Part shown: in pieces, positions 47,994 to 62,281 of the stretch
Numbering within the stretch: the first letter of the stretch is position 1
Layout of the letters: each line of letters starts with the position of its first letter
Origin: Streptomyces sp. PCS3-D2
GTDB taxonomy: Bacteria; Actinomycetota; Actinomycetes; Streptomycetales; Streptomycetaceae
Length of the DNA stretch: 64,000 bases
Assembly (NCBI RefSeq): GCF_000612545.2
Contig: NZ_CP097800.1
Coordinates: forward strand, 434,001 to 498,000
Direction: 5' to 3'
The notes under the pieces: model-generated
Told to the model about the DNA's origin: nothing
Database searches by the model: none
The model's input: the letters and a program-made list of their open reading frames with translations, nothing else
Program-made: the position numbers and the translations under genes

Positions 47994-50549
47994 TTGCAGC
48001 CCAGGCGCTCCTTCGCGCTCCCCGGCCCGTTACGCCGCTCCCACCTGCTCATAGCCTTCGCCCTCGGCTCCCTGCTGATCGGCCTGACGCCCTGGCTCGG
48101 CGTCACGAGCACCGCAGCGGCCGGCCGCGCACCGGGGCCGCGGGCCGCGCCCGTGCCCACCGACCAGCAGGCGGCGGTGCAGTCGCCGCACCACGGCGTC
48201 GCGCCGGCGAACGCCATGGAGCCCACCGCCCCCGTCCTCGACCGGGCCGGGTGGACGGCGAGCGCGAGCGACGAGGAGACCACCGGCGAGAACGGCCGCG
48301 CCGCCAACGTCCTCGACGGCGACGCCACCACCATCTGGCACAGCAAGTGGACCGGCACCCCCGCGCCCCTGCCGCACAGCATCACCATCGACATGCACCG
48401 CACCGCGGTCGTCTCCGCCCTCGTCTATCGGCCGCGTGCGAACGGGCCGAACGGGCGCGTCGGCGAGTACGGCATCAGCGTGAGCGCCGACGGCCGGAAC
48501 TGGGGCACCCCCGTCGCCACCGGCACGCTCGCGGACGACGCCACCACCAAGACCCTCGGCTTCGCCCCGACGGGCACCCGGTTCGTACGACTGACGGCGA
48601 CGACCGAGGCGGGCAACCGCGGGCCCTGGACCTCGGCCGCGGAAATCAACCTGCTGGGCGACCCGGGCACCCCCGAAGCCACCGTCGACCTGTCCCGGGC
48701 CGGGTGGACGGCGAGCGCGAGCGACGAGGAGACCACCGGCGAGAACGGCCGCGCCGCCAACGTCCTCGACGGGAACGCCACCACCATCTGGCACAGCAAG
48801 TGGACCGGCACCCCCGCGCCCCTGCCGCACAGCATCACCATCGACATGCACCGCACCGCGGTCGTCTCCGCCCTCGTCTACCAGCCCCGCGCCGACGGCC
48901 CCAACGGGCGTGCCGGCTCATACACCGTGGCGACCAGTACCGACGGCACCTCCTTCGGCGCCGCGGTGGCATCCGGCACCTGGCGGGACGACGACACCGT
49001 CAAGACCGCCACCTTCATCCGTGCCGAGCAGGCCCGGTACGTACGTCTCACCGTGACCGCCGAGGCGGGCGGCCGGGGTCCCTGGACCTCGGCGGCGGAG
49101 ATACGCCTGAGCGGGCCGGCCAACCCCGCCGTACACGGTTCCTGGGGCCGGATCATCGGCTTCCCCCTGGTCCCGGTGGCCACCGCCGCCCTGCCCGGGG
49201 ACAAGCTGCTCGCCTGGTCCGCGTACGCCGTCGACCGCTTCGGCGGCAGCAACGGCTACACCCAGACGGCGATCTTGGACCTGAAGACGGGCAGGGTCAC
49301 CCAGCGCCGCATCGACAACACCGGCCACGACATGTTCTGCCCCGGCATAGCGATGCTGGCCGACGGCCGGGTGCTGGTCACGGGCGGCAGCAACGCGGAG
49401 AAGGCCAGCATCTACGACCCGGCCTCCGACTCCTGGTCCGCGACCACCAGCATGAACATCGCCCGCGGCTACCAGGCCATGACACTGCTCTCCACCGGCG
49501 AGGCCTTCGTCCTCGGCGGCTCCTGGAGCGGGAACGCGAGCACCGACAAGGCCGGTGAGGTCTGGTCGCCCGACACCCGCACCTGGCGGAGGCTTCCCGG
49601 CGTTCCCGCCTCCCCGGCGCTGACGGCCGATCCGGCCGGGCCGTACCGCGCCGACAACCACATGTGGCTGCACGCCGTTTCGGGCGGCAAGGTGCTCCAG
49701 GTCGGCCCGAGCAAGCAGATGAACTGGATCTCCACCAGCGGCCAGGGCAGCATCACGCCGGCCGGCACCCGGGCCGACAGCCAGGACGCCATGACCGGCA
49801 ACGCCGTTCCGTACGACATCGGCAAACTGGTCACGCTGGGCGGTTCTCCGGCCTACCAGGACTCCCCCGCCACGCGGCGGGCGTACACCGTGGGCATCTC
49901 GGGCAGCCAGGTCCAGGCGGCACGCACCGGGGACATGGAGCACCCCCGTGCGTTCGGCAACAGCGTCGTGCTGCCCGACGGCAAGGTGGCGGTCTTCGGC
50001 GGCCAGGCCTATCCGGTGCCGTTCAGCGATGCGACCTCGGTCCTGACGCCCGAGCTCTGGGATCCGGCGACCGGCAGGTTCACCCCGCTGGCCTCCATGG
50101 CCGTCCCGCGCAATTACCACAGCGTGGCCAACCTGCTGCCCGACGGCCGGGTCTTCTCCGGCGGCGGCGGCCTGTGCGGCGACTGCGCCACCAACCACCC
50201 CGACGGAGCCGTCTTCACTCCGCCCTACCTGCTGAACGCCGACGGTTCGCCGAAGCCGCGGCCGGTGATTACCGGGGGCGTGCCTCCCCGGACGTCGCCC
50301 GGCACGCAGCTGACGGTGAGCACCGGGTCGTCCGTGGCCTCCTTCGTCCTGATGCGGGCCTCGGCCGCGACCCACTCCACCGACAACGACCAGCGGCGGG
50401 TACCGCTCGTGTCCACGCCGGCGGGGGCGGGCTCGTACACGGTATCCATCCCTGCGGACACCGGTGTGGTGCTGCCGGGGACGTACATGCTGTTCGCCCT
50501 CGACGCCCAAGGGGTGCCGAGCATCGGCCGGTTCGTCACCGTCTCCTGA
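47994..50549 (+). CDS. Secreted galactose-oxidase-like protein with two F5/8C domains
   Basis: An 851-residue exported protein. Signal peptide about 1-43, then two tandem F5/8 type C (CBM32-like) domains (about 84-225 and 234-378), then a Kelch-type seven-blade propeller and a DUF1929/GlxA-like C-terminal domain (about 740-851). The propeller keeps the radical-copper-oxidase scaffold ([41 protein letters not shown]). The TTG start at 47994 is set by a perfect AGGAGG 5 bp upstream. Likely role: extracellular oxidation of a glycan, as GlxA does in Streptomyces; the substrate is unknown. Confidence 0.75.
48242..48880 (+). repeat. 186-bp near-identical duplication inside F5/8C-encoding gene
   Basis: 48242-48427 and 48695-48880 align without gaps at a 453-bp (151-codon) offset and differ at only two nucleotides (GGCGAC versus GGGAAC). 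They encode the front halves of the two F5/8C domains; the remainder of the domains is more divergent. This points to recent duplication or gene conversion. Confidence 0.85.
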
Positions 50550-50736
50550 ACCGGTGGGCGGTGGCGGAGGTCCGACTCCGCCCACCCGCCGCCGGTGACC
50601 GGCCCACGCACCGAGGCCGGGACGGGTGACGCGTACCGGCCTTCCGTGCCCCCCTCCGTGGCCGAATCACGGCGGGGGGCACGGGTGTTCGGGTGACCGG
50701 GCTCCTCACACGGCCGTCCACGGGTACGGTTCCGGC

Positions 50737-51459
50737 ATGGACGTTTCCACAACCCATCCGAGCGACGACGTGGCTCCGGCCGCGGTGGTCAAGCACGCCG
50801 CACGCCGGCAACTGGCCGAACTGGGGGCGTCGGGCCTGTCCCTGGACGGCGTGGCCCGCGAGAGCGGTCTCGCCGTCGCCGATGTGCAAGCGGTCTTCCC
50901 GCACCGGGACGACCTGCTGACCGCGCTCGTCATCGACGCCTACGACGCGTCCGGTTCCGCGATGGAGCGGGCCGACCGGGCCGCCGCGGACGCCGGTGCC
51001 ACGGGGGGCGCCCGGCTCCTCGCGGCGGCCCGGGCACTGCGGCAGTGGTCCTTCGCGCACCCCGCCGAGTTCACCCTGATCTACGGCTCGCCCGTGCCTG
51101 GCTACCACGCCCCGCAGGACACCGTCCCGCCCGCCTCGCGCACCCCCGCGGTGCTCGCCGGCATCCTGCGATCCGCACTGGCGGCCGGCGAACTCGTCCC
51201 GCCCCGCCGGACGCTGCCGGGCGGGCTGCTGCGACCGGAGGCCCTGGAGCTCTTCGGCGGTGCGCCCGAGGCCCCCTTCGCGGACGTCGTCGAGCGCGGC
51301 ATCGTGCTGTGGAGCAGCCTGATCGGCCTGCTGGCGTTCCAGGTCTTCAGCCGTACGCACGACAGCGTCCTCGACGAGGCCGCCTACTTCGACCACGCCG
51401 TCGCGGTGGCGGCCGAGACCGTCGGACTTGAGGTCCCGGTGGGCGAGGGCGACCGCTGA
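50737..51459 (+). CDS. TetR-like transcriptional regulator
   Basis: A 240-residue TetR-type protein. The HTH covers GLSLDGVARESGLAVADVQAVFPHRDDLL, a fairly divergent version, and the ligand domain resembles the TetR_C-like domain (WSFAHPAEFTLIYGSPVPGY). It ends 1 bp before the MAB_1171c-family gene start, so they form an operon. No operator was identified. Confidence 0.82.
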   Translation: MDVSTTHPSDDVAPAAVVKHAARRQLAELGASGLSLDGVARESGLAVADVQAVFPHRDDLLTALVIDAYDASGSAMERADRAAADAGATGGARLLAAARALRQWSFAHPAEFTLIYGSPVPGYHAPQDTVPPASRTPAVLAGILRSALAAGELVPPRRTLPGGLLRPEALELFGGAPEAPFADVVERGIVLWSSLIGLLAFQVFSRTHDSVLDEAAYFDHAVAVAAETVGLEVPVGEGDR

Positions 51460-51460
51460 C

Positions 51461-52612
51461 GTGAACGCCATCCGGACCCTCTGCTTCGCGACAGCGGCGC
51501 TCTCCTCCTACGCCGCGCTCTTCTACCGCCTGTCCCAGGCCCGGCGCAGCTGGCGGGACGGCGCCTACCGGGCACTGATCGCCACCCTGCTGCTGCAGTG
51601 CCTCACCTTCACCATGGGAGCCGTCGCCATGGGTGGTGGAAGCTTCCTGGGCGTCGGCAACCTGGCCATCCTCATCATGCACCTGGCCGCCGTGGCCTTC
51701 TGCGTCGCGGCGCAGATCATCCTGCTGCGATGGGCTGCCACGGACGAGGCCGCGGCCCGTGGGACACGGTACTGGCTCGTCACCGGCATCGTCCTCGACG
51801 TGCTGCTGACGGCCCTGTTCTTCCTGGCGGACGGACCCGGACGGCCCACCTCCGACTTCGACGGGACCAGCAGGCCGCTGCTGCTCACCTACCTCCTGGT
51901 CTTCGTCGTGTCCCAGGCGGTGCCGTGCGTGACGATCTACCGGCAGTGCGGCCCGTACGCGCGGATGACGGACAACGCCTCGCTGCGGCAGGCGCTGCGG
52001 ATGCTCTCCGTCGCCGCCGTGGTGCTGTTCCTGTACTGCACGGCCCGTACGGTCAACATCCTGACCGCGGCGACCGGGGTGGACATCGGCGCCTGGAAGC
52101 TCGCCTCGAACGTCTTCAGCGCGACGGGCATCGTGATCCTCTCGCTCAGTCTGATCAACTCCTTGTGGGGGCCGCCCGTTTCCCGGCTCAAGGAGTGGGC
52201 CCGCAGCTACCGCGCCTACCGGGCGCTGCATCCGCTGTGGCGGGACCTCTACGAGTCCTCGCCGGACATCGCGCTGGAACCCCCGGGGGCGTCTGTCTCC
52301 GACCTCAACTACCGGCTGCACCGCCGGGTGGTCGAAATCCGTGACGGGTGGCGGGACTTGCGCCCGTACATCGACCGGGAGACGAACACCGCCGACGGGG
52401 CGAACGGGGAGGCGGGCGAGGAGCTGCGACAGGCGTTCGCGGAAGCGGCGCAGATCAGGCAGGCCCTCCAGGCCAAGCGGACCGGGACGGTCCCCGATCA
52501 CAGCAAGGACGCGGGCGACTTCGACGACCGCGACACGGACAACTTCGTGGCGGAAGTAGCCTGGCTCACCCAGGTTGCCGCCGCCTACAGTAAGCTCGGT
52601 AAGGCGAGTTGA
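51461..52612 (+). CDS. MAB_1171c-family membrane protein
   Basis: A 383-residue protein with seven to eight transmembrane helices in the first 235 residues and a soluble helical C-terminal part of about 150 residues. It matches the actinobacterial MAB_1171c putative-transporter family, which commonly occurs beside XRE and ImmA/IrrE genes, as here. The GTG at 51461 directly follows the TetR stop. The role is not established; the family context suggests an envelope sensor or exporter coupled to the XRE/ImmA switch. Confidence 0.7.
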   Translation: MNAIRTLCFATAALSSYAALFYRLSQARRSWRDGAYRALIATLLLQCLTFTMGAVAMGGGSFLGVGNLAILIMHLAAVAFCVAAQIILLRWAATDEAAARGTRYWLVTGIVLDVLLTALFFLADGPGRPTSDFDGTSRPLLLTYLLVFVVSQAVPCVTIYRQCGPYARMTDNASLRQALRMLSVAAVVLFLYCTARTVNILTAATGVDIGAWKLASNVFSATGIVILSLSLINSLWGPPVSRLKEWARSYRAYRALHPLWRDLYESSPDIALEPPGASVSDLNYRLHRRVVEIRDGWRDLRPYIDRETNTADGANGEAGEELRQAFAEAAQIRQALQAKRTGTVPDHSKDAGDFDDRDTDNFVAEVAWLTQVAAAYSKLGKAS

Positions 52613-52885: not shown

Positions 52886-52915
52886 GCCGAGGAGGTGACG
52901 GGAGGAAGGTTCACC

Positions 52916-53368
52916 ATGACGGAGACCGAGACCGGGGGCGATGACCGGCCCCTGCTCGCAGTGCGTCTCGACGACCTGTTCAAGACGGTTCGCCCGAAGG
53001 GCCGGCACTGGACCAACGCCGAGGTGGCGGAGGAACTGAAGCGGGCCAACCCCGAACTCAAGGCCGGGGGTGTGTATCTGTCGCAGCTGCGGACCGGCAA
53101 GCGCTCCAATCCCTCGCCCGACCTCCTGGCCGCCCTCGCCCGCTTCTTCGGCGTATCGGTCGCCTACTTCTTCGACGACAAGGTGGCCGAGTCCGTCCTC
53201 AGCGAGGTCGCCGCGATCGAGGCGCTGCGGCAGTCCGGGGTCCGGGCGGTGGCGATGCGGGCGGCCGGGATGAAGAAGGAGAACCTCCAGGCCATCACGG
53301 CCATCATGGACCAGTACCGGCAGTTGCAGGGCCTGCCGCCGGTCGACGACCCGTCCGGCCCCGAATGA
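52916..53368 (+). CDS. XRE-family HTH regulator
   Basis: A 150-residue regulator. Residues about 20-100 form an HTH of the XRE/Cro type (NAEVAEELKRANPELKAGGVYLSQLRTGKRSNPSPDLLAALARFFGV), followed by a helical dimerisation part. The ATG at 52916 follows GGGAGGAAGG. Its stop overlaps the start of the ImmA/IrrE gene (ATGA), showing coupled expression. Confidence 0.85.
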   Translation: MTETETGGDDRPLLAVRLDDLFKTVRPKGRHWTNAEVAEELKRANPELKAGGVYLSQLRTGKRSNPSPDLLAALARFFGVSVAYFFDDKVAESVLSEVAAIEALRQSGVRAVAMRAAGMKKENLQAITAIMDQYRQLQGLPPVDDPSGPE

Positions 53369-53946
53369 GGGGCGCCAGGAAGGAGCGGTCGGCGGACCAG
53401 GATCGCCGCAGCCGCCTCAAGAAGCTCCGGAAGGCCGGTGCGCAGCGGATCGCCGAACTCGACCTGCCGAAGGCGACCGACGTGGCCGAGCTGTGCCGCC
53501 ACCTCGGTGAGGCACGGGGCCGCCCCATCCTCCTGGTCCCGATGCAGATGCCTGCGACGCATCCGTGCGGCATGTGGGTCGCCGCCCGCGACGAGGACCT
53601 CATCTTCTACGACGCCAACACCACCAGCGCGCATCAGGAGCACATCATCTTGCACGAGCTGGGCCACATCATCTGCTGCCATCGCGGGGCCGGCGGGCTG
53701 GACGAGACGGCCGCCCGTCTGCTCTTCCCCAACCTCGACCCCGAACTCGTACGCGACATGCTCCTGCGGGCCGCCTACGACGACGTGCAGGAGCAGGAGG
53801 CGGAGATCATCGCCTACCTGCTCTCCCAGCGGATGGGCGCCACCGGCGAAGGACGGGATCGGACGGCCTCCGCCGGGGAGGCGGAAGCCGCCGGCGATCC
53901 GGGCACGAGTGCCATGCTCCACCGCATCGAACGCACCTTGTTCTGA
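53365..53946 (+). CDS. ImmA/IrrE-family zinc metallopeptidase
   Basis: A 193-residue protein with the zinc motif HELGH at 97-101 and a downstream Glu-rich helix (EQEAEIIAYLL) as the third-ligand region. ImmA/IrrE proteases cleave XRE-type repressors in mobile elements and DNA-damage responses. Translational overlap with the XRE gene makes that repressor the likely substrate. The gene ends 10 bp from the convergent megaenzyme gene, with no terminator visible between them. Confidence 0.85.
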   Translation: MRGARKERSADQDRRSRLKKLRKAGAQRIAELDLPKATDVAELCRHLGEARGRPILLVPMQMPATHPCGMWVAARDEDLIFYDANTTSAHQEHIILHELGHIICCHRGAGGLDETAARLLFPNLDPELVRDMLLRAAYDDVQEQEAEIIAYLLSQRMGATGEGRDRTASAGEAEAAGDPGTSAMLHRIERTLF

Positions 53947-53956
53947 CGTGGCCCGG

Positions 53957-56900
53957 TCACACCGCGGCGCTCGCCGCCACCTCCTCGGCCAGCACGGCGA
54001 CCGCCCGGCGGATGTCGTCCCGGCGGTGTTCGGACGTGAGGAAGAACCGCAGCCTCGCCTGTCCCTCCTCCACGGCGGGATGGAAGATCGGATCGGCGAT
54101 GACCCCGCGGGCGAACAGCTGGTCCGCGACGTGCAGGGTCCGCGCCGAGCCGCCGAGGACGACCGGGACGATGGGGGTGTCCGCGCTGGCGCCGGTCGGC
54201 AGGCCGGCCGCCGCGGCCAGTCCGAGGAACAGCTCGGCGTTCGCCCTCAGGGTGCGCACCCGGTGCGGTTCCGCGGCGATCAACTCGAGGGCGGCCAGTG
54301 CGGCGGCCGCGTTCGCCGGGGTCAGGCCCACGCTGTAGACGAAGCCCGGAAGGGTGTGCCGCAGCCAGCGGACCATACGGGCCGATCCACCCAGGTAACC
54401 GCCGCAACTGGCCAAGGACTTGGAGAGGGTGCCCATCCACACGTCCACGTCGGAGCGGTCCGCGCCGAAGAACTCGCCCACGCCGCGGCCGCGCTCGCCG
54501 ACGGTGCCCATGCTGTGCGCCTCGTCGACCATCAGCAGGGCGCCGTAGCGCTTCTTCAGCTCGATGAACGCGGGCAGGTCCGCCAGGTCGCCGTCCATGC
54601 TGTAGGCACCCTCCACCACGATCAGCACCCGTCGGAAACGGGACCGGTTGACTCTCAGGAGGTGTTCCAGGTCGCCGCGGTCGTTGTGGGCGAAGGGTCT
54701 GCGCGCCGCCCCGGACAGGGCGCATCCCTGGAGGATGCTGTCGTGGGCCAGCGCGTCATGCAGGACGAGGTCCCCGGCCCCGACGAGGTGCCCGATCGCG
54801 GTGACGTTGGTGGCATGGCCGCTGACCAGGGTGAGGCAGTCCCCGACGCCGAGGAAGGCGGCCAGGGAGCGTTCGAGACGGACCGTCAGCTCCCGTTCAC
54901 CCGAGAGCGGACGGCTCGCGGAGACGGAGGTCCCGTACCGTTCCACGGCCCGGTGCGCGGCTTCGTTGACCGCCGGATGGCCCGACATCCCCAGGTAGTT
55001 GTAGGAGCCGAAGGAGAGGTACGAGCGGTCGCCGATCACCGTGGTGTCGCGGACGGTGCCCTCGTGGACGCGGAAGTACGGGAAGCCGGACCCGCCGGCG
55101 GTGACCGAGGCCAGGCGCTCCTCGAAGAGGGAGACCTCCGGGAAGTCGTCGACAGTGGTGGAATCTCGGCGCCACTCGGCCGGCCGCGCCTCGCGGGAGG
55201 GGCCGCCGGAAGCCGCCGGCCGGGCGCGGCCCGGATCGATCAGCGCGATCAGGGCACCGACGGTGAGTTCGGGCGCGAACAGGTCCTCGGTGCGGAATCC
55301 GGGCGCGCGCCTGGCGATGTTGACCGCCAGTTCCTGGAGCATGAGGGAGTCGAACCCGAGGCCGGCCACCAGCGCCATGTCCTCGCCGAGGTCCTCGCGG
55401 GGGAACACCCCGGTCCGCGACACCTCCTCGAACACGATGGACACGGCGTCCTCGCGGGGCGCGGGGGACGGAGCCGGCGCCCGGGACGGCGCCGCCACGG
55501 CCGGCTCGGCGGCCGCGCCCACCGCCGGCGGGGACCCGGCAGGCTCCGCCGGGGTGTCCAGCGCGCGCGCCGCGTCGTCCACGACCCAGTGGCGGCGGGG
55601 TGCGAGCGGACTGGGAGGCAGGGTGCACGGGGGTGTGCGCCGGGCCGCGGAGGCTTCGGCGGGCATCGGCGCGGGCCCGGGCTCCACAGCGCGTCCGGCC
55701 TCCAGCGCCGCGGCCTCCGCGATCAGGCGGGCGGCGGCATCGGCGGGGTCCCGGGCCGACAGCGCGAGGTGCTCCTGCAGGGGTGCCCGCCGGGCCAGGG
55801 TGTCCGCGACCTGGGCCAGCGGCGGCCGGTCCTCGGTGAGCGACCTCGCCACGTCCCTGGCGTACCGGGCCAGTCCGGCCCGGTCGCGCGCGGTGAGGAC
55901 CAGTTCGCGGGGCCCCTCGGGTGGCACCGGGCGGACCGCCGGCCCAGCGTGCTCCTCCAGAACCAGGTGGACGCCGGTGCCGCCGAAGCCGAAGGCGCTC
56001 ACCCCGGCCCGGCGGGGCAGGTCGCTCCCGGGCCACGCGACCGGTGCCGTCGCGACGGTCAGTCGAGCGTCGTCGAGGACGGTGGTGTCGGCGAGGGCGA
56101 AGTCCGGCTGCGGCGGGATCACCCCCCGCTGCACGGCCAGGACCGACTTGATCAGTCCGGCCAGGCCCGCCGAGTTGAGCGAGTGCCCGACGACCGCCTT
56201 CACCGCGCCGAGGTGGGCGGGGGCCGCGGCCTCACCGCGCAGTTCGCGCAGGACCGCGAGTTCGACGGGGTCCCCGACGGTCGTCCCGGTGCCGTGCGCC
56301 TCCAGGTAGCCCACCTCGCCCGGGGGCAGGCCCGCGTCGCGGTAGGCCCGGCGCAGGGCCCTGAGCTGGCCGCCCGCCTGCGGGTGCATGCCGCCCTGGA
56401 CGGTCCCGTCGTTGGCCGTCCCCACACCGCGGATCACCGCGTAGACCCGGTCGCCGGCCGACAGGGCGTCGGCCAGTGGCCGCAGCACCAGCACCCCGGC
56501 GCCCTCCCCGAGGACGAATCCGTCGGCGTCGGTACCGAAGGGCAGGCATCTGCCGCTGCGCGAGATGGCACCGATCCGACACAGTCCCACCAGCAGGTCC
56601 GGGGTGAGGACCAGCTGGGCGCCACCTGCGATCGCGATGCGGGACCGGCCCGCGCGCAGCGCGTGGACCGCGTTGGCGACGGCCATGAGCCCGCCGGAGC
56701 AGGCGGCGTCCAGGGCGTAGCTCTCGCCGTGCAGGTCGAAGACCGAGCTGATCGTGTTGGGCCCCATGTTGAGGAGGAGCCCAGCCACGGAGGTGCCGTG
56801 CAGACCTTGGACGGCGCGTACGGCCTCCGTCCCGGAGTCCGTCGCCCTCGCCCCGAACTCACCTCCGGCCAGCTGGCGCATCCGTATCCGCATGGTGCTC

Positions 56901-57328
56901 AGCTCGCGGTAGCCGCTCTCGGTGAGGGCGGTGATCACCGAGGTCTCTTCGCGGTCGAAGCCGTCGGCCTCCCAGCCCGCGTCCTGGACCGCCTCACGGG
57001 TCAGGTCGATCAGCAGCCGGTGCTGGGGATCCATCGCCGCGGCCCGGCGCGGCGGGATGCCGTAGTGCGCCGCGTCGAAGTGGCCCACGTCCGGCAGCAC
57101 GGCCATGGTGTCGGTGTAGGTGGACGACGTGTCGCGGAAGTCGCCGCTGAGAAAGGCCGCACTGCGCCAGCGCGTGTCGGGGATGGTGGAGAACTGCGGT
57201 CGCGGGTCCGTCAGCAGCCGCCAGTACTCGTTCAGGTTCCGGGCTCCCGGGAACCGGCAGGCCATTCCCACGACTGCTATCGCCGCGTGCCCCTCCCCCG
57301 GGCTCCGCGCCCCCGTCACGGAGGTCAT
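53957..57328 (-). CDS. KS-ACP-alpha-oxoamine synthase fusion megaenzyme
   Basis: A 1123-residue single protein. Ketosynthase about 14-460: Cys210 in DAACSGG, His345 in EAHGTGT and His382 in VGHSLNSAG. A Pro/Ala-rich linker leads to an acyl carrier protein (about 625-700, Ser661 in GFDSL). The C-terminal about 390 residues are a PLP alpha-oxoamine synthase: DEAH at 935-938 and PLP-Lys970 in TLSKSLA. There is no acyltransferase domain, so extender loading must be in trans. The AOS would join the ACP-bound acyl chain to an amino acid with loss of CO2. The ATG at 57328 overlaps the SDR stop by 4 bp. Confidence 0.88.
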   Translation of the reverse strand: MTSVTGARSPGEGHAAIAVVGMACRFPGARNLNEYWRLLTDPRPQFSTIPDTRWRSAAFLSGDFRDTSSTYTDTMAVLPDVGHFDAAHYGIPPRRAAAMDPQHRLLIDLTREAVQDAGWEADGFDREETSVITALTESGYRELSTMRIRMRQLAGGEFGARATDSGTEAVRAVQGLHGTSVAGLLLNMGPNTISSVFDLHGESYALDAACSGGLMAVANAVHALRAGRSRIAIAGGAQLVLTPDLLVGLCRIGAISRSGRCLPFGTDADGFVLGEGAGVLVLRPLADALSAGDRVYAVIRGVGTANDGTVQGGMHPQAGGQLRALRRAYRDAGLPPGEVGYLEAHGTGTTVGDPVELAVLRELRGEAAAPAHLGAVKAVVGHSLNSAGLAGLIKSVLAVQRGVIPPQPDFALADTTVLDDARLTVATAPVAWPGSDLPRRAGVSAFGFGGTGVHLVLEEHAGPAVRPVPPEGPRELVLTARDRAGLARYARDVARSLTEDRPPLAQVADTLARRAPLQEHLALSARDPADAAARLIAEAAALEAGRAVEPGPAPMPAEASAARRTPPCTLPPSPLAPRRHWVVDDAARALDTPAEPAGSPPAVGAAAEPAVAAPSRAPAPSPAPREDAVSIVFEEVSRTGVFPREDLGEDMALVAGLGFDSLMLQELAVNIARRAPGFRTEDLFAPELTVGALIALIDPGRARPAASGGPSREARPAEWRRDSTTVDDFPEVSLFEERLASVTAGGSGFPYFRVHEGTVRDTTVIGDRSYLSFGSYNYLGMSGHPAVNEAAHRAVERYGTSVSASRPLSGERELTVRLERSLAAFLGVGDCLTLVSGHATNVTAIGHLVGAGDLVLHDALAHDSILQGCALSGAARRPFAHNDRGDLEHLLRVNRSRFRRVLIVVEGAYSMDGDLADLPAFIELKKRYGALLMVDEAHSMGTVGERGRGVGEFFGADRSDVDVWMGTLSKSLASCGGYLGGSARMVRWLRHTLPGFVYSVGLTPANAAAALAALELIAAEPHRVRTLRANAELFLGLAAAAGLPTGASADTPIVPVVLGGSARTLHVADQLFARGVIADPIFHPAVEEGQARLRFFLTSEHRRDDIRRAVAVLAEEVAASAAV

Positions 57329-58263
57329 CGGGCGGCCGATCGCGCACGCCACCAGTCGACGGTGGCCGTGACCTGTTCGGCGACGGGGGTGGCCCGCACC
57401 GCGAAAGCCTCCTCGTAGGCAGTCGCATCAACCACGAAGGGGCGGTCGAACTGGTAGCGGATCTCTCCCAGTTCACGCATGAGCGGCGAGAAGAGCCCCG
57501 CAAGCGACAGTGCGGCCGACGGGATCCTGCGCACCACCGCCGGCCCGCTCCCCGACTCCGCGGCGAGCCGGTCGGCCATCTCCCGTACGGACCGGGGAGG
57601 TTCGGTGGGAATGTGCCAGGGACGCCCCCAGGCCCGCTCCTCGCCCGCGACCTCGGCCATCGCCGCGGCCACGTCGGGAAGGTAGGTCCAGCTGTGCGGG
57701 GCGTCCGGATCTCCCAGCGTGGCGACCGGCTTGCCGCGCAGCAGCGCCGGTACGACCCGTCCGGCGAGGTGGCCCCCGGTGGTGACGCCCGGGCCGAAGA
57801 AGTCGCTGGCCCGCACCTCGACCGCCCTGATGCGGCCCTGCTCGTGCAGGGTCCGCACCTGTTCCCACGCGGCGGCGCGGACCCGGCCCTTGGGGCCGGT
57901 CGCGGCGAGCGGGAGTTCCTCGGTCAGGGGGCCGTCCACCGGCCCGTAGCCGTAGAGGTTGCCCAGCATGACCAGGACGGCACCGGTGGCCTCGGCCGCG
58001 GCGCAGACCGACGCGACGAGCGGCGGCCATGCGCGCACCCAGCGGTGGTAGGGGGGTGCGGCGCAGTGGTGGATCGCCGTCGCGCCCCGTGCGGCGGCGA
58101 TCAGCCGCTCCCGGTCCGCCGCGTCGAACGCGACGTGTTCGAGCCCCGGTTCCGGGCTTCTGCCCGACCTGGTGACGACGCGTACGGAATGTCCCTGCTC
58201 TGCCAGCAAACGGGCGGTGGCGGCGCCTGCGGGTCCGAAACCCACGACCACATGAAGACTCAC
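57325..58263 (-). CDS. NAD(P)-dependent epimerase/dehydrogenase-like protein
   Basis: A 312-residue atypical SDR with the N-terminal dinucleotide motif GFGPAG. It resembles NAD-dependent epimerase/dehydratase proteins; the classical Tyr-x3-Lys pair is not evident, so catalysis is uncertain. The GTG at 58263 gives the complete Rossmann start. Its stop overlaps the start of the KS-ACP-AOS gene (ATGA), so the two are translationally coupled. It could reduce the aminoketone made by that enzyme; this is inference. Confidence 0.72.
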   Translation of the reverse strand: MSLHVVVGFGPAGAATARLLAEQGHSVRVVTRSGRSPEPGLEHVAFDAADRERLIAAARGATAIHHCAAPPYHRWVRAWPPLVASVCAAAEATGAVLVMLGNLYGYGPVDGPLTEELPLAATGPKGRVRAAAWEQVRTLHEQGRIRAVEVRASDFFGPGVTTGGHLAGRVVPALLRGKPVATLGDPDAPHSWTYLPDVAAAMAEVAGEERAWGRPWHIPTEPPRSVREMADRLAAESGSGPAVVRRIPSAALSLAGLFSPLMRELGEIRYQFDRPFVVDATAYEEAFAVRATPVAEQVTATVDWWRARSAAR

Positions 58264-58437
58264 GCGCGCACCCTAGCGCGAGTCCGGATCGATCTCTTCC
58301 GAGTTTGGCCGGTACCGGACGGTCCCGGACCGGGACGGGCCCGGAACAGGTACGGGATCGGCAAGGCGCCGCTGCGGGCCCGGACCGACGGCGCCCGGGA
58401 TCCGCCGGACGCGGTTGGCCAGGACCCGACCCGTCGT

Positions 58438-58468
58438 GCCGGGCCGGACCCGTCGTCACGGGCCCGGC
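58438..58468. terminator. Weak hairpin after methyltransferase gene
   Basis: GCCGGGCC (58438-58445) pairs with GGCCCGGC (58461-58468) across a 15-nt loop, in the 220 bp between the methyltransferase stop and the SDR start. It is the only candidate stop signal between the terpene operon and the SDR/KS operon, so read-through is possible. Confidence 0.35.
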
Positions 58469-58483: not shown

Positions 58484-59380
58484 TCAGACGCGATCGGCGG
58501 CGATCAGCACGTACTGGAAGGAGCCGTCCCTGTAGGAGTTGATGAACGCCTCCTCGATGCCCGTGACCAGAGACGACGTGGCGCGCAGCTCCCAGTACGG
58601 CAGGGTCTCGGGGGTCAGGTCGATCACGACTTGCGGCACGAGACGGTTGTCGGCCATGGCCCGCATGTACTCACGGCGGGAGTGGATGTTGCACTCGAAG
58701 TGGGCATTGATCTGGGAGACCCACTTCGAGGGCTGGCCGTAACGCGGGTTCCAGCAACCGGTGATGGTCACGTAGCGGCCGCCGACCGCGAGGACGCGGG
58801 AGTGCTCGGCGAACAGGTCGTGCAGGTCGACGTACATGCTGGACTCGTTGTTCCAGGAGGCGGCGGCCTGTCCCGTCTCGAACGGCGTGTTGAGCATGTT
58901 GCAGACGCGGGCGTGGACGGAGTCCTCGATACCCAGCTCGCGGGCGCGCTGGTTGGCGAAGTCGGCCTGCTTGGCCGACAGGGTGACGCCCTCGACCTTG
59001 CATCCGAAACGCTGGTGGGCCATGACCATCGAACCGCCGCGGCCGCAGCCGGCGTCCACGAGCGTGTCGTCGCGGCCGATGGCGCCCAGGTGGTTCAGCA
59101 GGACGTCCGCCTGCGCGGACTCCAGGCGGTGGAGCTCGGCGATCAGCTTCTTCTCGTATGCGCTGTCGCCGGAGTCCCCGAGGGCCGCGTGGTCGATGTC
59201 ACCGATGCCGTAGTGGTGGTGGTAGAGACCGTCGACATCTCCGAGGCGGAGGTTCACCGGCCGCGCCTCGTGGTCCCAGTAGCGGGCGATGTCGCCCTGG
59301 TAGGGCGTCGCCGGGGAGGGAATGAAGGCGGACGTGGGGGCTGCAACGGTGAAATCGGTGCTAGTCACAGAGGGATCCAT
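58484..59380 (-). CDS. Geranyl diphosphate 2-C-methyltransferase
   Basis: A 298-residue SAM-dependent C-methyltransferase. The SAM-binding motif VDAGCGRGGS and the family-specific text YWDHEARPVNLRLGDVDGLYHHHYGIG and NPRYGQPSKWVSQINAHFEC match GPP methyltransferases that make 2-methyl-GPP, the substrate for 2-MIB synthase. The ATG at 59380 lies 2 bp after the MIB synthase stop, where its own ribosome site is poor; GTG 59368 is an alternative. Close coupling to the cyclase gene is expected. Confidence 0.9.
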   Translation of the reverse strand: MDPSVTSTDFTVAAPTSAFIPSPATPYQGDIARYWDHEARPVNLRLGDVDGLYHHHYGIGDIDHAALGDSGDSAYEKKLIAELHRLESAQADVLLNHLGAIGRDDTLVDAGCGRGGSMVMAHQRFGCKVEGVTLSAKQADFANQRARELGIEDSVHARVCNMLNTPFETGQAAASWNNESSMYVDLHDLFAEHSRVLAVGGRYVTITGCWNPRYGQPSKWVSQINAHFECNIHSRREYMRAMADNRLVPQVVIDLTPETLPYWELRATSSLVTGIEEAFINSYRDGSFQYVLIAADRV

Positions 59381-59382
59381 CC

Positions 59383-60774
59383 TTACCAGAAATCGGGCAG
59401 GCTGTAGCGGTAGGTGTTGGTCTGGTGCCAGTAGTGGTTGCCGTCGACCCAGGCGGCCACGCCCCGCAGGAAGCGCAGCATGCGTGGATCGGGGCAGGAG
59501 GCGGCCAGTTCCGCGGCCGCGGCTTCGAAGGCGTGCATGAGGTCGTTGTGGACCTCCACCGCCTTCAGGTAGGCCTCCTTGTCGGACAGGCCCTCCCGTG
59601 CCGCGATGACCACCGGCAGGTTCAGGTGCAGGCCGGGGCTTTCGAGTTCCTTGGTGTAGGAGTACAGGTCGTTGGCGAGGGTGGTGGCGTTGCCGGCGAG
59701 CGCGATCACCCGCTGCGTGGCGGGCATGGCGTGGAGATCGGCCGGGAGTTCGTAGCCGCCCACGGTGTCGGTGATGGTGGGACAGGGGCGGAAGTTGTTG
59801 AACTGGCGCATCGCCAGGTACTCGGACACCTCGGGGACGTACTTCGTCTCGGCCCATGCGGCCTCGGCGAGGTACCCCAGGTGCAGCCGGGCCATGTCGT
59901 GCCGGTACCGGTCGGCCTGCGACGGGGTCGCCGCCCGGGTGAAGTACTCCATGGCCGAGCGGTAGGAGCGCCGCGGGGCGTCCGAGAGGAGTGACTGCGC
60001 CCAGGCCGGCTGGTACTCCGCGGTCGTGTGGACCGGGTCCAGAGCGGTGTGCGCCAGCAGAAGCCTTCCTCCTAGTCCGACGGGCGATCCACCGTGGTCC
60101 TCGCAGTAGCAGTCGTCGACCACGTTCTCGGCGACCATCAGCCGGGTGGCGATCATGAGGTGGTCGACGGTCGGGGCGTCCGGGTGGCAGGCGACCATGT
60201 AACGGCCCACGGAGAAGCCGTCGAACTGGTCCTCCCACTCCGGCGGGTAGGCCTCGACCTCGTCCACGGCCCAGCGCTTGATCCGGCGGCTGACCTCCTC
60301 GACCCGGACGGGGTCGGGTTCCGGGACCTGGTGGTGGTAGAGGCCGGGGACCGGCCTGCCCTCCGCGGCGGGCCGCGGAGCGGGCACGTCGGCCACCGCA
60401 GGCGGGCTGGCGGTCGGTGCCGGGCGCGGCGTGAAGAACAGCCCCGCCGTACCCACACCGCTGGGACCGCGCATGATCCGCTCCAGGGCGGGGTTCGGTG
60501 TTGCCGGCGCGGCGGCGGCCTCCCGCACCGGCGCGGCGACCAGGTCGCCCCCGGGTCCTTCAGTGGTTCCTTCGCCGGGTACGGGCAACGGCCCGGGAAC
60601 GGCAACGGGGTGGGAAGGCCGGGTCGCCGGCCCGAAGGGCAGCGGCGGCCCGGTCGGCAGCGCGGGCTTGCCTCCGGTGACGGGGTCGGCGCCCCGGCCG
60701 TGACCGTGGGTTCCGAAGCGGGCCGCGGCGGCAGGCAGGCTCGACTGCGCAGGGGAAGGCCCGGGAACGGGCAT
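59383..60774 (-). CDS. 2-Methylisoborneol synthase (terpene cyclase, encapsulin cargo)
   Basis: A 463-residue class I terpene cyclase. The Asp-rich motif DDCYCED (220-226) and NSE-type NDLYSYTKE (368-376) are those of 2-MIB synthases. Residues 1 to about 148 are Pro/Ala/Gly-rich and disordered; in the family this extension holds the segments that load the enzyme into the family 2B encapsulin shell, and the conserved-looking ERIMRGPSGVGTAGLFFTPR lies at about 98-117. The ATG at 60774 has AGGAG 6 bp upstream. It follows the shell gene with a hairpin between. Confidence 0.92.
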   Translation of the reverse strand: MPVPGPSPAQSSLPAAAARFGTHGHGRGADPVTGGKPALPTGPPLPFGPATRPSHPVAVPGPLPVPGEGTTEGPGGDLVAAPVREAAAAPATPNPALERIMRGPSGVGTAGLFFTPRPAPTASPPAVADVPAPRPAAEGRPVPGLYHHQVPEPDPVRVEEVSRRIKRWAVDEVEAYPPEWEDQFDGFSVGRYMVACHPDAPTVDHLMIATRLMVAENVVDDCYCEDHGGSPVGLGGRLLLAHTALDPVHTTAEYQPAWAQSLLSDAPRRSYRSAMEYFTRAATPSQADRYRHDMARLHLGYLAEAAWAETKYVPEVSEYLAMRQFNNFRPCPTITDTVGGYELPADLHAMPATQRVIALAGNATTLANDLYSYTKELESPGLHLNLPVVIAAREGLSDKEAYLKAVEVHNDLMHAFEAAAAELAASCPDPRMLRFLRGVAAWVDGNHYWHQTNTYRYSLPDFW

Positions 60775-60808
60775 CCGTGGCTCCTAGGTGATGGGGGTGG
60801 GCGGTGCG

Positions 60809-60847
60809 GGACCCTCCCGGGCACGGTCGGCCGGCCCGGGAGGGTCC
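60809..60847. terminator. Hairpin between encapsulin and MIB synthase genes
   Basis: Perfect 14-bp stem GGACCCTCCCGGGC (60809-60822) with its complement (60834-60847), 11-nt loop, inside the 94-bp intercistronic gap. As an attenuator or RNA-stability element it could raise shell over cargo expression. The effect is inferred. Confidence 0.55.
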
Positions 60848-60868
60848 GGGCTGCTGGCGGCCGGGCCG

Positions 60869-62281
60869 TCAGTCGCGCCGGCGGCCGATCTGGACGTTTT
60901 CCATCACCCCGAGCGCGTCGGGCACCAGGATGGCGGCGGAGTAGTAGGTGGTGACCAGGTACGAGATGATCGCCTGCTCGCTGATGCCCATGAAGCGCAC
61001 GGACAGGCCCGGCTCGTACTCCTCCGGAAGTCCGGTCTGGTGCAGGCCGATGACGCCCTGGTTGTCCTCGCCCGTGCGCATGGCGAGGATGGAGCTGGTG
61101 TTCTCCTTGCTGATGGGGATCTTGCTGCACGGGAGGATCGGTACCCCGCGCCAGGCCGGAACCTGCTGGCCGCCGAGGTCGACGTGGTCCGGGTAGAGAC
61201 CGCGGGCGTTGAACTCCCGCCCGATCGCCGCGATGGTCCGGGGGTGGGCGAAGAAGAACTTGGTGCCGCGGCGGCGGCAGAGCAGTTCGTCCATGTCGTC
61301 CGGGGTGGGCGGCCCGGAGTGGGTCTGGATGCGCTGCTTGAAGTCGGCGTTGTGCAGGAGCCCGAACTCCCGGTTGTTGACGAGTTCGTGCTCCTGGCGC
61401 TCGCGCAGCGCCTCGATGGTGAGTCGGAGCTGCTCCTCGGTCTGGTTGTGCGGGCCGTTGTAGAGGTCGGCGACACGCGTGTGGACCCGGAGCACGGTCT
61501 GGGCGATGGAGAGTTCGTACTCGCGCGGCTTGAGTTCGTAGTCGACGAAGGTGCCGGGGAGCGCGGCTTCGCCGGTGTGGCCGGCGGACATCGCGATCTC
61601 GGCCTCGCCGTGCTTGTTCTGCCGCTGGTGCGGGAGCGAGCCGAACCGCTCGACGTGGGCCCGGAGGTTCGGTGCCGCGTCGAGGACGGCGCCAAAGTCG
61701 GCGCGGGAGAGGGTGAGCAGGGTGCCGGAGGTCTCGGCGGTGGCCGTGTAGTCGGCCGTCGCGTCCGCGTCCAGCAGCGCGTTCTCACCGAAACGGTCGC
61801 CGTCAGCCAGTACCGAGACGGCGATGGCGTCGCCGTACTTGCCGACCGAGGTCTGGCTGACGCGGCCGTGGGCGATCAGGTGGATCCGGTCGGCGACGGC
61901 CCCGCGCTCGATCAGCACCTCGCCGGCGCGGAAGTCACGCTGGACGCACCGGTCGGCGAGCGTGACCAGCACCTGCTCGTCCTCGAAGCCGCGCAGCATG
62001 GCGAGTTCGCCGAGTTCGCGCGGGATCACCCGGACGTCCGCCCCGTCCTGGACGAACTCGATGCGGCCGTCGCCGACGGTGTAGGTGAGGCGGCGGTTGA
62101 CACGGTAGGTGCCGCCCTTGGTCTCCACCCAGGGGAGCGTCTTCAGGAGCCACCTGGAGGTGATCTCCTGCATCTGCGGGGCGGACTTGGTCGTGGTGGC
62201 AAGGTTGCGGGCGGCCGCCGTGCCCAGACTGGTCTGCCGGATCGGCTCCAGCTGCGCCTCTGGGCTGGTGTCCACGGTCAT
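60869..62281 (-). CDS. Family 2B encapsulin shell protein with cyclic-nucleotide-binding-like domain
   Basis: A 470-residue protein of the family 2B encapsulins (SrpI-related). HK97-type coat regions flank a cyclic-nucleotide-binding-like domain (about 85-215), recognisable by [17 protein letters not shown] and [10 protein letters not shown]. The canonical phosphate-binding Arg after the FGE motif is not seen ([10 protein letters not shown]), so cyclic nucleotide binding is doubtful. The late part [38 protein letters not shown] is typical of the family. It should assemble a shell around MIB synthase. RBS AAGGAGAG precedes the ATG. Confidence 0.88.

Follow-up and report, generated by a model that had tools for sequence, protein, structure and literature searches.

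RedL, which acts in the formation of undecylprodiginine in Streptomyces coelicolor, is a polyketide synthase (PKS) protein that carries a loading part, a ketosynthase (KS), an acyltransferase (AT), an acyl carrier protein (ACP) and a pyridoxal phosphate (PLP)-dependent alpha-oxoamine synthase (AOS). In two papers, KS extension is described to give a beta-ketoacyl-ACP, which is released by decarboxylative condensation with an amino acid at the AOS and cyclises to 4-keto-2-undecylpyrroline, and RedK, a separate reductase acting after RedL, completes the conversion (PMC11188435; PMC12654105). In the sphinganine pathway of Pseudomonas fluorescens MYb115 (PfSgaA, PfSgaB and PfSgaC), a separate and iterative PKS makes the acyl chain for the AOS PfSgaB, which is nearly exclusive for L-serine, and a gene for a short-chain dehydrogenase/reductase (SDR) lies in the cluster (PMC12134224). 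Here, a gene pair is described from a 64-kb stretch of the Streptomyces sp. PCS3-D2 genome (NZ_CP097800.1, positions 434,001 to 498,000; called the window below), in which a KS, an ACP and an AOS are fused in one protein and the gene overlaps that of an SDR-like protein. Like RedL, the fusion has KS, ACP and AOS in order in one protein, and the separate SDR recalls RedK; unlike RedL, it has neither an AT in cis nor a loading part. The likeness is one to RedL and RedK as described in print. The pair consists of the following parts (L numbers denote related loci from other records).

57325..58263, minus strand: atypical extended SDR of the NAD-dependent epimerase/dehydratase family, 312 amino acids, GTG start (Pfam Epimerase, nine-member alignment)
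57325..57328, minus strand: ATGA stop/start overlap of the SDR and KS-ACP-AOS genes, translational coupling (GTGA in L004, ATGA in L005)
53957..57328, minus strand: KS-ACP-AOS fusion protein, 1123 amino acids (reading frame, Pfam, two orthologues, substitution ratios)
55931..57286, minus strand: KS domain, residues about 15-466, with Cys210, His345 and His382 (Pfam ketoacyl-synt N and C, motifs, KS tree)
55445..55930, minus strand: remnant of the KS-AT linker and post-AT linker, the site at which the AT of L001, L006 and L009 is missing (alignment of relatives, looser constraint)
55229..55444, minus strand: ACP domain, residues about 629-700, with Ser661 (PP-binding when scanned alone; Ser661 codon checked)
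53960..55108, minus strand: PLP AOS domain, residues 741-1123, with His862, Asp935, His938, Lys970 and Arg1094

Translation of the fusion most likely starts at ATG 57328, in the overlap with the SDR stop; the automatic open reading frame (ORF) call opens eight codons earlier, at GTG 57352. The original prediction, made from the letters of the window, had named five catalytic residues of this fusion, and motifs and Pfam place all five where it put them: DAACSGG starts at residue 207 (Cys210), EAHGTGT at 343 (His345), KAVVGH at 377 (His382), GFDSLM at 658 (Ser661) and LSKS at 968 (Lys970). Pfam scores are 216.7 bits for ketoacyl-synt, 112.7 for Ketoacyl-synt_C, 48.0 for KAsynt_C_assoc and 126.1 for Aminotran_1_2. 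The ACP is undetected at E 1e-3 in the scan of the whole protein; its region alone gives PP-binding at 23.1 bits (cut-off 20.8), and its GFDSLM is also present in the aligned L004, L005 and L008. No ketoreductase (KR), dehydratase (DH) or enoylreductase (ER) domain is found by Pfam. No second KS and no AT were detected in the window, tblastn with KS, AT, ACP and AOS at E up to 1 returning the query itself and two short matches (E 0.55 and 0.65), as had been predicted for an AT and for other PKS genes.

Genome contigs were scanned with two short peptide patterns, by which 588 stretches were matched and 578 confirmed, and 80 of the 578 were retained. Among these 80, at least two loci combine the SDR with an orthologue that is full-length and AT-less, namely L004 of Streptomyces sp. 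APSN-46.1 (KS-ACP-AOS 73%, SDR 80%) and L005 of S. lavendofoliae (74% and 75%). The SDR gene is directly upstream of the KS-ACP-AOS gene in both, and the predicted ATGA overlap with an SDR-like gene recurs as a 4-bp overlap in all three loci. The ratio of nonsynonymous to synonymous substitution rates (dN/dS) was taken pairwise for the three pairs among PCS3-D2, L004 and L005. For whole genes it is 0.26-0.32 in all three pairs and for both genes, so that the pair is more than a chance association. By part, it is 0.17-0.20 in the KS, 0.16-0.21 in the AOS, 0.46-0.52 in the ACP, 0.40-0.57 in the linker and 0.28-0.32 in the SDR: the KS and AOS domains are under purifying selection.

The search for an AT gave no match in the window and none in the retrieved stretches of L004, L005 and L008 (Planosporangium thailandense), while L001, L006 and L009 carry one; the free-standing AT expected of a trans-AT PKS was likewise not detected in the 64-kb window and the L004 and L005 stretches. 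In the closest AT-bearing relatives, L001 (S. anthocyanicus, from a plasmid record) and L006 (S. dysideae), the domains run KS-AT-ACP-AOS, as in PCS3-D2 save for the AT, and these two are nearest beyond the AT-less trio in both the KS and the AOS trees. They differ in the cis AT and in their neighbours, an MMPL transporter and an Acg-type FMN oxidoreductase, and no relative of the PCS3-D2 SDR was found in their retrieved stretches at E 1e-5. With these neighbours, L001 (14414-22830) and L006 (5447-14866) show the family in a second conserved arrangement; we know of no product of their synthases. In the alignment, PCS3-D2, L004 and L005 retain the KS-AT linker and the post-AT motif around the AT gap, the scar being shorter in PCS3-D2 than in the other two. 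L008 is AT-less too, with most of the linker also gone. It looks as if the AT was lost from an ancestor of the KS-AT-ACP-AOS type, with linker remnants left behind. In L008 (6445-13956), the KS-ACP-AOS gene is flanked by those of an AMP-binding ligase, a CMAS-type methyltransferase and a YegS/DAG-kinase-like protein, a neighbourhood that would suit a long-chain base pathway.

The KS tree was built by a quick method from 38 rows, PCS3-D2 and 37 loci (15 of the 16 chosen, then the 22 next best; L088 was left out, having no match of at least 330 residues), few of them trans-AT-like. In it, PCS3-D2, L004 and L005 group with L001 and L006 (SH-aLRT 99), and L008, L007 and L009 then join (98 for all eight). 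Six of the seven other members of this clade belong to proteins in which an AOS is present as well, and the seventh, L007, ends at a contig edge, with its C-terminus unseen. The "minimal trans-AT route" of the original prediction therefore needs to be divided: the absence of an AT stands, and malonate supply in trans is likely, whereas trans-AT as a family label is not supported. In this 38-row tree the KS does not group with trans-AT KSs, being apart from L018 (six KS matches and no AT match in 24.9 kb), which lies elsewhere with L017 and L022, and its clade-mates L001, L006 and L009 carry a cis AT. From the position of the AT-less L008 in the KS tree, AT loss apparently happened twice in this small AOS-fused family; the AOS tree sets L008 outside the other five only weakly (85/56), which leaves a single loss as a less likely alternative.

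The AOS tree comprised PCS3-D2, all 20 AOS matches with E <1e-10 in 88 loci and three references, with a long-branch warning for L002, KBL, ThAOS, L003, L030 and L088. PCS3-D2 falls in an 18-row clade (100/99) with L086 (S. meliloti pSymB) and L085 (a Pseudomonas plasmid with the SgaAB arrangement, which it represents in the tree, PfSgaB itself being left out); the AOS genes of both adjoin a PKS gene roughly 7.5 kb long. Outside the clade are the PigH-type L002, KBL, ThAOS and serine palmitoyltransferase (SPT) rows. Identity to the PCS3-D2 AOS is 59.1% for L006, 58.5% for L001, 51.6% for L085, 49.1% for L086 and 34.2% for L002. Lys970, Asp935, His938 and Arg1094 align with the AOS reference rows, and we take the first to be the PLP lysine, the next two its neighbouring Asp and His, and the last the carboxylate-side Arg. 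Judged by sequence, the AOS belongs with the PKS-linked enzymes of the rkp-type locus in S. meliloti and the SgaAB-type locus in Pseudomonas. The original prediction had pointed to AOS domains with ACPs in prodiginine-type and sphingoid-like chemistry; a PigH-type AOS was ruled out by the place of L002 in the tree.

The two loci resemble the pair in part. In L086, a gene of PKS size, the AOS gene and an SDR gene are consecutive (presumably rkpA, rkpG and rkpH, the record giving no names); unlike in PCS3-D2, they encode separate proteins among capsule-type neighbours, with a classical SDR and a KS outside the PCS3-D2 KS clade. The same clade of AOS joins L085 to the pair, but its KS too belongs to another clade and its SDR is classical (YxxxK), without a BLAST match to the PCS3-D2 SDR.

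The SDR itself matches Pfam Epimerase at 62.8 bits against a cut-off of 20.9. In all nine aligned members, glycines 8, 10 and 13 of the N-terminal glycine-rich NAD(P) motif are invariant, and so are Lys125 and Arg129, which, placed by eye, sit at the Tyr and Lys positions expected of YxxxK. YxxxK itself is absent; it is present in all three SDRs compared from L084-L086, loci of the rkp and SgaAB types. An RkpH or SgaC orthologue, of the classical KDSR/SgaC/RkpH type, was ruled out by this absence and by a best BLAST E of 0.33 against those SDRs. Among NCBIfam models OleD comes first, with a weak 27.5 bits, and an AlphaFold2 model from three sequences is poor (pLDDT 56.6). The SDR family is widespread, with matches in 113 plasmid records, 65 of which cover at least 80% of the SDR. 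In the Streptomyces plasmid locus L094 (3070-7107), a gene annotated as a bifunctional SDR/PLP aminotransferase-family protein lies two genes past a gene with a beta-ketoacyl synthase domain, so that an SDR and an AOS fold are paired there too.

The reading that we favour, with about even confidence, is that of a stand-alone single-module synthase, with one malonyl extension supplied in trans, release by the AOS with an amino acid, and the SDR acting afterward. The KS would accept a fatty acyl starter from the host fatty acid synthase (FAS) or an acyl thioester, and the ACP would be loaded with malonate in trans, host FabD being the likeliest donor. A single decarboxylative condensation would give a beta-ketoacyl-ACP. 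The PLP-dependent AOS would then condense the chain with an amino acid, serine being the likeliest, and so release it with decarboxylation. The resulting 2-amino-3,5-diketone should cyclise to a 4-keto-2-alkylpyrroline, in the way proposed for RedL, and the atypical SDR would act on the aminodiketone or on its ring form. One malonyl extension followed by amino-acid condensation is favoured because an intact-looking KS that feeds an AOS without reducing domains follows the logic of RedL. The synthase reading is based on the domain order, the catalytic residues, the pairing and overlap of the genes, purifying selection, the absence of an AT and the AOS clade; FabD as malonate source, the single extension, the amino acid, the cyclisation and the role of the SDR are inferred.

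Several points weigh against this reading. The amino acid of RedL is glycine (PMC11188435). Among NCBIfam models, bioF scores the AOS higher (328 bits) than the SPT models (300 bits or less), all under their cut-offs, and the amino-acid specificity of SgaAB- and rkp-type AOSs need not carry over because the KSs of SgaA/RkpA-type PKSs lie in another clade. The ACPs of L004 (15.0 bits) and L005 (12.5) are under the Pfam PP-binding cut-off. A keto-reductase role of the SDR is uncertain, since the protein lacks YxxxK and BLAST gives no useful match between it and its classical counterparts in the rkp- and SgaAB-type loci. Furthermore, SDR homologues occur without a KS-AOS match in the retrieved stretches of L087 (72% identity) and L089-L093 (35-51%).

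The main alternative, possible but considerably less probable, is a sphingoid route, in which the KS merely transfers a ready acyl chain to the ACP, or lengthens it while host FAS enzymes carry out the reduction, and the AOS works as an ACP-fed serine palmitoyltransferase, giving 3-ketosphinganine to be reduced by the SDR or host enzymes. The AOS clade and the YegS/DAG-kinase neighbour of L008 are in its favour, but the Cys-His-His of an elongating KS is kept under purifying selection, no KR, DH or ER domain was found, and the SDR, without YxxxK, is not of the classical KDSR-like type. Use of glycine in the manner of RedL and RedK is unlikely: the pair would then make a 2-alkylpyrrole, the SDR performing the reduction and dehydration of RedK. 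Against the agreement in logic with the last steps of RedL, as far as these are described and except for the AT, and against the coupling to an NAD(P)-binding-type protein, stand the position of the PigH-type L002 outside the AOS clade and the lack of YxxxK. That the synthase is a decaying relic, inactive since AT loss, is very improbable: the AT is gone, its scar in L004 and L005 exceeds that of PCS3-D2 in length, and the ACP scores are weak, but the catalytic residues are kept, dN/dS of the KS and AOS is about 0.2 in all three pairs, the SDR overlap is kept in all three loci, and a second kind of AT-less relative exists in L008.

As the original prediction held, no known product could be assigned to the KS-ACP-AOS and SDR pair. 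Among the open-licence papers listed on AOSs and PKSs, none on a KS-ACP-AOS of the PCS3-D2 type was recognised, and no Streptomyces prodiginine locus with RedL and RedK was recognised among the 25 matches listed of 694 plasmid records (query, the PigH-type L002).

Around the pair, the following features lie in the window.

58445..58466, minus strand: 9-bp hairpin directly 3' of a methyltransferase stop, possible transcription end of a 2-methylisoborneol (2-MIB) operon (fold)
58270..58275, minus strand: TAGGGT, resembling a -10 box and placed 6 nt ahead of the GTG start of the SDR, probable leaderless promoter
53365..53946, plus strand: ImmA/IrrE-type metallopeptidase-like gene with HELGH, convergent conserved neighbour (motif by eye, orthologues in L004 and L005; no Pfam or NCBIfam match)
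52895..53368, plus strand: XRE-type helix-turn-helix regulator, conserved neighbour (Pfam HTH_3)
51428..52612, plus strand: MAB_1171c family protein (DUF6545), conserved neighbour (NCBIfam NF042915, 324.8 bits; Pfam DUF6545)
50626..51459, plus strand: TetR family regulator, conserved neighbour (Pfam TetR_C_33)

The SDR transcript is probably leaderless and made from its own promoter, because a TANNNT box stands 6-7 nt before the SDR start in four loci: TAGGGT in PCS3-D2, TAGTGT at the same 6 nt in L004 and L005, and TAGGGT at 7 nt before the stand-alone SDR homologue of a S. viridifaciens plasmid (L087). Of 63,995 positions in the window, 31 on one strand and 43 on the other match TANNNT. No such box is at the corresponding place in the remoter SDR homologues L089-L093, and a consensus promoter and terminator scan, tuned to sigma-70 and T-rich terminators, gave nothing. 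Perhaps the promoter is older than the pairing of the SDR with the synthase.

The four plus-strand regulator-type genes are convergent with the pair and downstream of the KS-ACP-AOS gene, with the same arrangement in L004 and L005. All six genes (TetR, MAB_1171c, XRE, ImmA-type, KS-AOS and SDR) stand together in the three loci, and the conserved unit is thus larger than the pair named in the original prediction. The TetR protein is a candidate regulator, because its relatives are found divergently next to the SDR homologues of L089 and L091, and also next to the AT-carrying synthase of L006. It is a doubtful, quite speculative extension that the six genes form a cassette of their own for signalling or self-sensing, in which the pair would make a diffusible alpha-aminoketone or pyrroline-type molecule (compare the CAI-1-type AOS signals) sensed by TetR, XRE/ImmA and MAB_1171c. 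In the S. viridifaciens plasmid L087 (8001-15917), an XRE/ImmA/MAB-like trio lies about 5 kb beyond the SDR homologue.

Upstream of the pair, 58484-62281 on the minus strand is a 2-MIB-type encapsulin operon, with NCBIfam matches to a Family 2B encapsulin shell (NF041163, 769 bits), an encapsulin-cargo terpene cyclase (NF041167, 480 bits) and a geranyl diphosphate 2-C-methyltransferase (NF041943, 475 bits). Relatives of the terpene cyclase and encapsulin are absent from the 93 loci searched at E 1e-3, and the sole methyltransferase match among them is weak and in the unrelated L079, with none in the stretches of about 23 kb each of L004 and L005. A functional link of the pair with this operon was ruled out by its absence from the retrieved stretches of L004 and L005, the hairpin and the apparent SDR promoter; a terminator scan requiring a T-run gave nothing at the hairpin. 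On the other side, 47994-50549 on the plus strand is an 851-residue ORF whose translation, judged by eye, has repeats that resemble discoidin and a C-terminal part that resembles galactose oxidase.

The PCS3-D2 synthase looks like a trimmed-down form of the machinery for red pigments and bacterial sphingolipids. If the single-module reading is true, few one-protein routes that lead from primary fatty acid metabolism to an aminoketone or an alkyl-pyrroline would be smaller, and a RedL-like extension logic would be joined in it to an AOS of the kind lately described for PKS-based sphinganine synthesis. Actinomycetes would then be possible makers of such lipids, and the apparent double loss of the AT in a small family makes the question of the malonate source testable with one protein and FabD.

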